Shown here piece after piece: positions 22,970-23,886 of a stretch of DNA of 64,000 nt. Source of the stretch: Haloplanus salinus (GTDB taxonomy: Archaea; Halobacteriota; Halobacteria; Halobacteriales; Haloferacaceae); assembly GCF_003336245.1 (NCBI RefSeq), contig NZ_QPHM01000001.1:310001-374000 (forward strand), read 5' to 3'. The translations under genes were made by a program, and so were the position numbers. The notes beneath the pieces are model-generated. The model ran no database searches, was not told the DNA's origin, and saw nothing but the letters and a program-made list of their open reading frames with translations. Every line of letters begins with the position of its first letter. The first letter of the stretch is position 1.

Positions 22970-23562
22970 GGCGAAGGCTCGTACCCGTCCGGGGCGCTCC
23001 GAGACGCCTGATGACTCCGCGCCGTCCGCAAGGGGTTAACCCGTCGGAGGCGTACGGCTGTCTGCGTGCCTCTAGTCCCCGCCCGAGCACGCCCGTCAGG
23101 GCGCGATGACCGCGCGGAGAACCCGGGCACGTGATATGGGTGAGTACGAGTCACCCGACTACGGAACCGGCGTCAGCCGGTGAACGGTGCCCCGACGGCC
23201 GAACTGACCGACGGGGCGCCGGGTCGTCTTCGGACGACCGAACCCGTGCCGCCGTCGCACGCGCTCGACGGCCGCCCGGCACGAGGGTTAGCCAGCCGAC
23301 ACGGCACGCCGCCAGGGATGAGGCTGGACGTTAGTGTTCCGGGCGCACACTCCGGCCCGTTACAGCGCTCGCTGCGCTCGCTTGCAAAAACTCGGTCGAA
23401 AGCACTCCCCGTCGTATTCTCGGGAGAGAAGTCGGTGACGACGAGCCAGGAATGATGTCTGACGGGAGTACGGTAGGTGTGATGGGTTTGGACGTCCGTG
23501 CTGAATACACGCCACGTATCTCCCGTGGGGCGTCCCTCGCTTTCAGGCAGACAGATCGGTCG
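22970..23562. other. Intergenic, hairpin-rich, no supported protein gene
   Basis: 593 bp between the flavin reductase and the broken NifU-like gene. Apart from the hairpin run it contains a perfect GGGTTAACCC palindrome (23033-23042). It also has an AGCGCTCGCTGCGCTCGC-type repetitive stretch near 23365-23380, of the sort scattered in haloarchaeal intergenic DNA. Open frames here have no recognisable protein features. Confidence 0.6.
23138..23351 (+). ncRNA. Candidate structured RNA: six consecutive hairpins
   Basis: Between 22970 and 23562 there is no convincing protein gene, but this part holds a run of stems: 23138-23156 (GGGTGA/TCACCC), 23166-23181 (ACCGGC-GTCA-GCCGGT), 23186-23220 (9-bp stem), 23222-23239 (GGTCGTC-TTCG-GACGACC), 23241-23289 (nested AACC, CGTGCCG and CCGTCG stems), 23292-23327 (CCAGCC/GGCTGG) and 23333-23351. 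The UUCG tetraloop and the G·U pair in the third stem favour the plus strand. I searched for SRP and RNase P signatures and found none. The identity is unknown. Confidence 0.4.
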
Positions 23563-23886
23563 GAACGGCGGGTCGTAGTCCTCGTACTCCGCCATCTCGT
23601 CCATCTCGTCGGTCTTCGACGGCATCACGGCGGCACTGGGGCCACCGGCTCGGACGACCTCGACCTCGGAAATTTCGTCGACGCCCCCGGGGAGGCGCTA
23701 CTCGGTCGCGTTCATCGTCATCGGCGCGATGCCACACCCGGGACGGGCACCGCCGATCGCGACCGTCACTCGCCCGGCGTCCTCGTCGACGTCGCGCACT
23801 TCGAAGGAGCCGCCGTGCTGCTGGATCTGTGGCACGTTGTTACTCAGGTAGTTCCGCGTTCGTCGTTCGAGGCTTTGAGCGCTCAT
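23563..23886 (-). pseudogene. Broken NifU C-terminal-domain (Fe-S scaffold) gene
   Basis: Begins at the ATG at 23886 with NifU-like sequence: NNVPQIQQHGGSFEVRDVD, then RVTVAIGGA, then GCGIAPMTM. Two defects are visible. The scaffold CxxC is reduced to RPGC (first Cys lost), and an in-frame TAG occurs at 23700-23698. After the stop the same frame still reads as family sequence (RLPGGVDEISEVEVV, then MPSKTDEMDEMAEYEDYDPP). The expected terminal stop after PPF is also gone. Most simply this is a pseudogene; a truncated 62-residue product would lack cluster-binding ability. Confidence 0.82.

Follow-up and report, generated by a model that had tools for sequence, protein, structure and literature searches.

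A two-hairpin H/ACA guide RNA, with its hairpins HP1 and HP2 'separated by a long spacer', was predicted in Haloferax volcanii in 2008 (PMC2584109). In that prediction HP2 is assigned to the pseudouridines at positions 1956 and 1958, and HP1 to the pseudouridine at 2621, and the two hairpins are described as adjacent in Thermococcales (PMC2584109). Pseudouridines at 1956, 1958 and 2621, which correspond to E. coli 1915, 1917 and 2586, are also reported for H. marismortui (PMC2584109). The portions of that report available to us mention the spacer of the H. volcanii RNA and hold no account of its structure (PMC2584109). Pseudouridines of helix 69 are likewise guided by Afu-4 and by the eukaryotic U19 and snR191 RNAs (PMC2584109). 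A further relative is HgcG, also described as Pab40 or Pf7 (RF00064), in which three motifs lie next to each other with nearly no spacer. For P. abyssi, in vitro work identifies U2588 as a target of Pab40 (PMC6138745), and psi-2016, the equivalent of psi-1956, is reported to be introduced by Pab40 as well (PMC2584109).

The locus described here belongs to Haloplanus salinus and lies in the 64,000-nucleotide stretch of DNA that was analysed (hereafter the window). It very probably specifies a haloarchaeal double-hairpin H/ACA guide RNA, kin to HgcG/Pab40 (Pf7), with HP2 directed to U1953 and U1955 and HP1 to U2618 of the 23S rRNA, and with a spacer that is a self-folding linker. The H. volcanii HP1/HP2 RNA, which we take to be sR-h45, has reportedly been tested in Haloferax, by Blaby in 2011. 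With this RNA from another genus the present one has in common the two hairpins, the long spacer and the predicted targets, and we regard it as the same RNA, matched by description and not base by base (PMC2584109). It is not a new class, an H/ACA guide having already been predicted in Haloferax (PMC2584109).

Comparison with relatives places the predicted RNA at about 23063-23349 on the plus strand, in the order HP1, spacer and HP2. When 23063-23352 is folded alone, the predicted structure consists of HP1, a hairpin S1, a 5-bp stem around the hairpins S2-S4, a hairpin S5 and HP2. The original prediction was of a run of six hairpins at 23138-23351, a stretch that covers the middle and 3′ part of this longer RNA. 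All six hairpins are recovered, as S1-S5 and HP2, but the 5′ quarter of the RNA, which is HP1, lay outside those coordinates. The density of stems had been put well above that of the other intergenic DNA of the window, and an excess holds for folding energy: the folding z of the stretch is -3.35, equalled in 0/240 random 214-nt pieces of the window, and that of 23100-23380 is -2.63 on the plus strand and -1.46 on the minus strand. It does not hold for the number of hairpins, as three perfect stems (at least 6 bp, at most one G-U pair) occur in the stretch and three or more in 2109 of 6379 windows; hairpin counting fails to separate the stretch from the rest of the window and was dropped as evidence.

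ARAGORN finds neither a tRNA nor a tmRNA in the window, and Rfam at its curated thresholds gives no match there, in agreement with the proposal that the locus is unannotated. A permissive Rfam scan reports HgcG at 9.1 bits (E 3.5; HgcG positions 200-268, on HP2), far from its gathering cut-off of 77 bits, and an L31-Actinobacteria leader at 17.2 bits (E 1.6); HgcG alone was taken further. Small open reading frames cross the stretch, as they would if it were coding DNA. Two overlapping frames scanned with Pfam have no match, which accords with the earlier claim that no protein gene is present, and the stems of HP1 and HP2 covary (see below); on these grounds the coding reading was rejected. A palindromic mobile repeat is countered by the same covariation and by the genome itself, which each of the two hairpin models (R1 for HP2, R2 for HP1) matches just once. 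We consider the probability that the stretch is either coding DNA or such a repeat to be negligible.

We infer that the RNA is expressed. A TATA-like box (TTAA) lies at 23036..23039 on the plus strand, 24-27 nt 5′ of HP1 and thus at the expected distance, a position shared by most of 110 haloarchaeal loci; over these loci, the A/T fraction at these four positions is 0.75, 0.93, 0.98 and 0.69, against about 0.3 around them. T is enriched directly 3′ of HP2 in the same 110 loci. Directly 3′ of the RNA, at 23364-23389 (plus strand), lies AGCGCTCGCTGCGCTCGCTTGCAAAA, present once in the window and once in the genome; with up to three mismatches it recurs in 6 of the 110 HP1/HP2 loci and is possibly a terminator-like element. 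Further downstream, at 23698-23886 on the minus strand, a 62-residue piece matches a NifU-like domain (PF01106) within a longer frame that is broken by a stop, and looks like a decayed gene.

At the DNA level, 23080-23380 matches 130 of 147 related genomes, chiefly as two blocks that correspond to HP2 and to the 5′ part. Examination at the level of the locus covered 110 of the 130. In profile searches HP1 and HP2 co-occur on the same strand in 110/110 of these haloarchaeal loci, with spacers of 4-159 nt that reach at least 23 nt in 108. A separate set of 120 named haloarchaeal loci, retrieved with an HP2 pattern and sharing organisms with the 110, also has HP1 in 116 cases (spacers 8-252 nt). 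Another 20 loci were examined, of which 19 lie outside the window's order and one belongs to a divergent member of it; HP2 is found in all 20 and HP1 on the same strand in 15, an opposite-strand match in the divergent member (L315, genome G098) being left out of the count. The spacers in these 20 loci measure -1 to 16 nt, and the long spacer is therefore typical of haloarchaea. It is missing from L315, where HP1 and HP2 are separated by -1 nt; given this spacerless arrangement, the order may be where the spacer first arose. Two other genomes, G225 and G337, are matched by the HP1 model (E 6e-5 and 8e-5) but have no listed HP2 match, and could contain a split guide.

The models of the two hairpins were built from hand-chosen sets of 55 (HP1) and 56 (HP2) of the 110 loci. 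Each hairpin follows the layout of an archaeal H/ACA guide, with a stem, an internal guide pocket and a second stem whose pairs covary, and an ACA/ANA box directly 3′ of the lower stem. In both, the upper stem carries a GAUGA element that we take to be kink-turn-like; as a putative L7Ae site it is represented by conserved GA/AUGA, at the level of sequence only. Most invariant columns belong to a pocket, a GA/AUGA element or an ANA box. In a shuffling control on both hairpins the observed covariation score is reached in 0/500 shuffles, and sliding the pairing partner by 1-3 columns abolishes the signal. The proposal of a structured RNA, which had been made to depend on conservation and covariation in relatives, is thus borne out by the presence of both in haloarchaea.

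HP1 (23063..23136, plus strand) scores 92.0 bits with model R2, and its lower and upper stems both appear in the full-length minimum free energy fold. Its pocket is formed by a 5′ guide strand, UCUAGUCC at 23071..23078, in which GUC pairs with the GAC 3′ of the target, and a 3′ guide strand, AGAACCCG at 23118..23125, in which AACCC pairs with the GGGUU 5′ of the target. Among the 55 sequences, T14, C15 and C16 of the 5′ strand are invariant and A12 and G13 conserved in at least 90%, and G57, A58, C60, C61 and C62 of the 3′ strand are invariant, as are A44, T45, G46 and A47 of the GAUGA element (23105..23109) and A74 of the ANA box. The box reads ATA here (23134-23136), ACA in most relatives, and lies 16 nt from the upper stem. 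Both sides have changed in 13 of 16 pairs, with 97.4% of pair cells standard. Natural variants of the HP1 pocket occur in L105 and L134, with the 23S target the same where a 23S sequence was found.

HP2 (23272..23349, plus strand) scores 103.1 bits with model R1. The 5′ guide strand CACGAGGGUUA (23280..23290) contains the invariant A13, G14, G15 and G16, and the 3′ guide strand ACGUUAGUGUU (23328..23338), which allows two registers, contains the invariant run G59-G65 (GTTAGTG). T48 and G49 of the GAUGA element (23317..23321) are also invariant, together with A28 opposite, as are A76 and A78 of the ACA box (23347-23349). Of its 16 pairs, 10 show changes on both sides among the 56 sequences, with standard pairing in 97.9% of pair cells. 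The distance from upper stem to ACA is 18-19 nt, above the 14-16 nt rule for archaeal H/ACA guides quoted in PMC4652768, where Pab40.2 is likewise set aside, owing to its large internal loop. Natural variants of the HP2 pocket are seen in L065, L128, L136 and L139, again with the same 23S targets where 23S was found; CAT-AGGG and GAGGGCAAG are examples from the variant pockets of the two hairpins taken together.

The relation to HgcG was approached in reverse, by running covariance models built from haloarchaea only on 30 Rfam HgcG loci. The HP1 model matches 30/30 (E up to 0.065) and the HP2 model 19/30 (E up to 0.02), and within the HgcG loci the two matches adjoin, -3 to 2 nt apart. The second HgcG motif, with its GGUCCCC and AACCC pocket, is the counterpart of HP1, and the third, with its GGGUUAG and GUUA pocket, is the counterpart of HP2; judged by these matches, HP1 is homologous to motif 2 and HP2 to motif 3 of HgcG/Pab40. 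In contrast to HgcG, with its extra first motif and near absence of a spacer, the locus here has two motifs and a 135-nt spacer; the three adjacent motifs of HgcG are not found, motif 1 having been sought through Rfam scans only. The extra motif may account for part of the Pab40 target data (U2588, psi-2016). In a phylum sample of 246 genomes, R1 matches 100, of which 42 belong to the window's order and 58 do not, and R2 matches 66; R1 and the Rfam HgcG model overlap in 11/11 phylum genomes with both matches, and among the genomes searched the HgcG model has no haloarchaeal member. The 58 genomes outside the order suggest a wide distribution of the helix-69 guide across the phylum.

Both pockets show bipartite complementarity to rRNA uridines. 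Among the 770 uridines of the 16S and 23S rRNAs, the HP2 pocket ranks 23S U1953 (8+4 bp) first and U1955 (6+4 bp) second. The HP1 pocket pairs with 23S U2618 (3+5 bp, with a 5′ guide pairing of 3 bp only), tied second on score behind U2275. Shuffled pockets equal the top score of HP2 in 79/1000 cases and that of HP1 in 449/1000, and the pocket scan alone would therefore not convince; its weight comes from agreement with the independent H. marismortui and H. volcanii data. U1953, U1955 and U2618 each lie exactly three positions below psi-1956, psi-1958 and psi-2621 of H. marismortui (PMC2584109), and correspond to E. coli 1915 and 1917 in helix 69 and 2586 in the peptidyl transferase centre.

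By score, HP1 might instead guide 23S U2275 (22) or 16S U901 (21, the same as U2618). This appears improbable to us, as the equivalents of U2275 and U901 carry no listed pseudouridine in the parts of the H. marismortui and H. volcanii tables available to us, and the nearly invariant AACCC strand of HP1 matches the conserved GGGUU at U2618. The targets were compared in 16 genomes, nine of them haloarchaeal and most chosen for changed pockets. Fifteen of the 16 share one helix-69 target sequence, the sixteenth having one G to A change beside the target, and the core of the peptidyl transferase centre is identical in 16/16; both targets are nearly invariant in this set.

With U2618 as the HP1 target, the two hairpins would act as follows. 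Each, folded into a lower stem, a guide pocket and an upper stem that bears the kink-turn-like element, and followed on its 3′ side by the ANA box, would be loaded with Cbf5, L7Ae, Nop10 and Gar1; genes for Cbf5, Nop10 and Gar1 are present in the genome. The HP2 pocket would hold 23S U1953 or U1955 in its two registers and the HP1 pocket U2618, and Cbf5 would convert the uridines held there to pseudouridine. The self-folding spacer would stop the HP1 and HP2 modules from mispairing.

This spacer, 135 nt at 23137..23271 (plus strand; z -3.68), is lineage-variable and has a predicted structure made up of S1 (23137-23157), S2 (23166-23181), S3 (23185-23221), S4 (23222-23239) and S5 (23252-23271), with the predicted 5-bp stem around S2-S4 formed by 23160-23164 and 23244-23248. 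Five of the six hairpins first noticed thus lie in the part of the RNA whose sequence is conserved least. S4 is the GGTCGTC-TTCG-GACGACC stem singled out at the time, and S3 is a 10-bp stem with one G-U pair on the plus strand. Spacers of at least 45 nt (39/110 loci) have a mean z of -2.34, with z below -1 in 33/39, and three length-matched flanks per locus have means of -0.15, 0.16 and -0.17. The spacer lies below the mean of its own flanks in 37/39 loci (Wilcoxon p 6e-10, an optimistic value given that the loci are related). Over all spacers of at least 25 nt (101/110) the mean z is -1.12, and the effect resides mainly in the long ones. Supplementary files aside, the literature as available to us contains no description of this folding behaviour.

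Long spacers that are far more structured than their own flanks, and an array that recurs at many loci with differing sequences, could mean that the hairpins are functional in themselves, as a hairpin-array RNA of a new kind, regulatory or protein-binding, that lies by chance between the two guide hairpins. We think this unlikely, in view of a spacer length that ranges so widely over the 110 loci, and over 24-135 nt among the twelve members of the window's genus, five of which have merely 24-36 nt. Spacers share no sequence across families, kink-turn-like ATGA occurs in only 2/110 and box C in only 1/110, and the structure is equal on both strands, with no strand bias in z.

The folding of the whole RNA bears on the remaining readings. 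In folding calculations at 37 C, which leave aside high salt and proteins and covered the 101 spacers of at least 25 nt, the native HP1 and HP2 pairs are likelier with the real spacer than with dinucleotide-shuffled ones in 36/39 long and 56/62 short cases; among the exceptions, L004, L133 and L136 have a real spacer that is worse than shuffled for the HP1/HP2 fold. We suggest that the spacer may serve as an insulating linker. The main rival explanation is that its hairpins are neutral by-products of palindrome formation by template switching, tolerated since they fold on themselves. Fast turnover, near-perfect stems and equal structure on both strands are what such an origin would leave behind. 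Within the genus, stems in corresponding positions have different sequences in both arms, for example GGGTGA/TCACCC, GGTGATTC/GAATCACC and GGGAGGT/ACCTCCC. Against it stand the flanks of the same loci, which have no folding excess, and the advantage of real over shuffled spacers in keeping HP1 and HP2 folded. Neutral tolerance of self-folding inserts is hard to separate from selection for insulation, and we give it a substantial chance that falls well short of even. Selection for insulation we put forward tentatively, at somewhat under an even chance: the haloarchaeal guide-RNA linker would be a selected and rapidly rebuilt hairpin array, whose self-folding keeps the two guide modules independent in GC-rich, high-salt cells.

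For genome annotation, a nearly universal haloarchaeal RNA lies far below the Rfam threshold, and Rfam-based annotation consequently misses an RNA predicted to guide three pseudouridines in the functional centres of the ribosome. The aspect of the spacer worth following is its conserved foldedness without conserved sequence, and the structured spacer offers a compact system in which to ask if the linkers of modular RNAs are selected for self-folding. If the selected-array reading is true, the hairpins would turn over in sequence, number and length even within a genus, and this would be an RNA linker conserved solely in its inability to interact.
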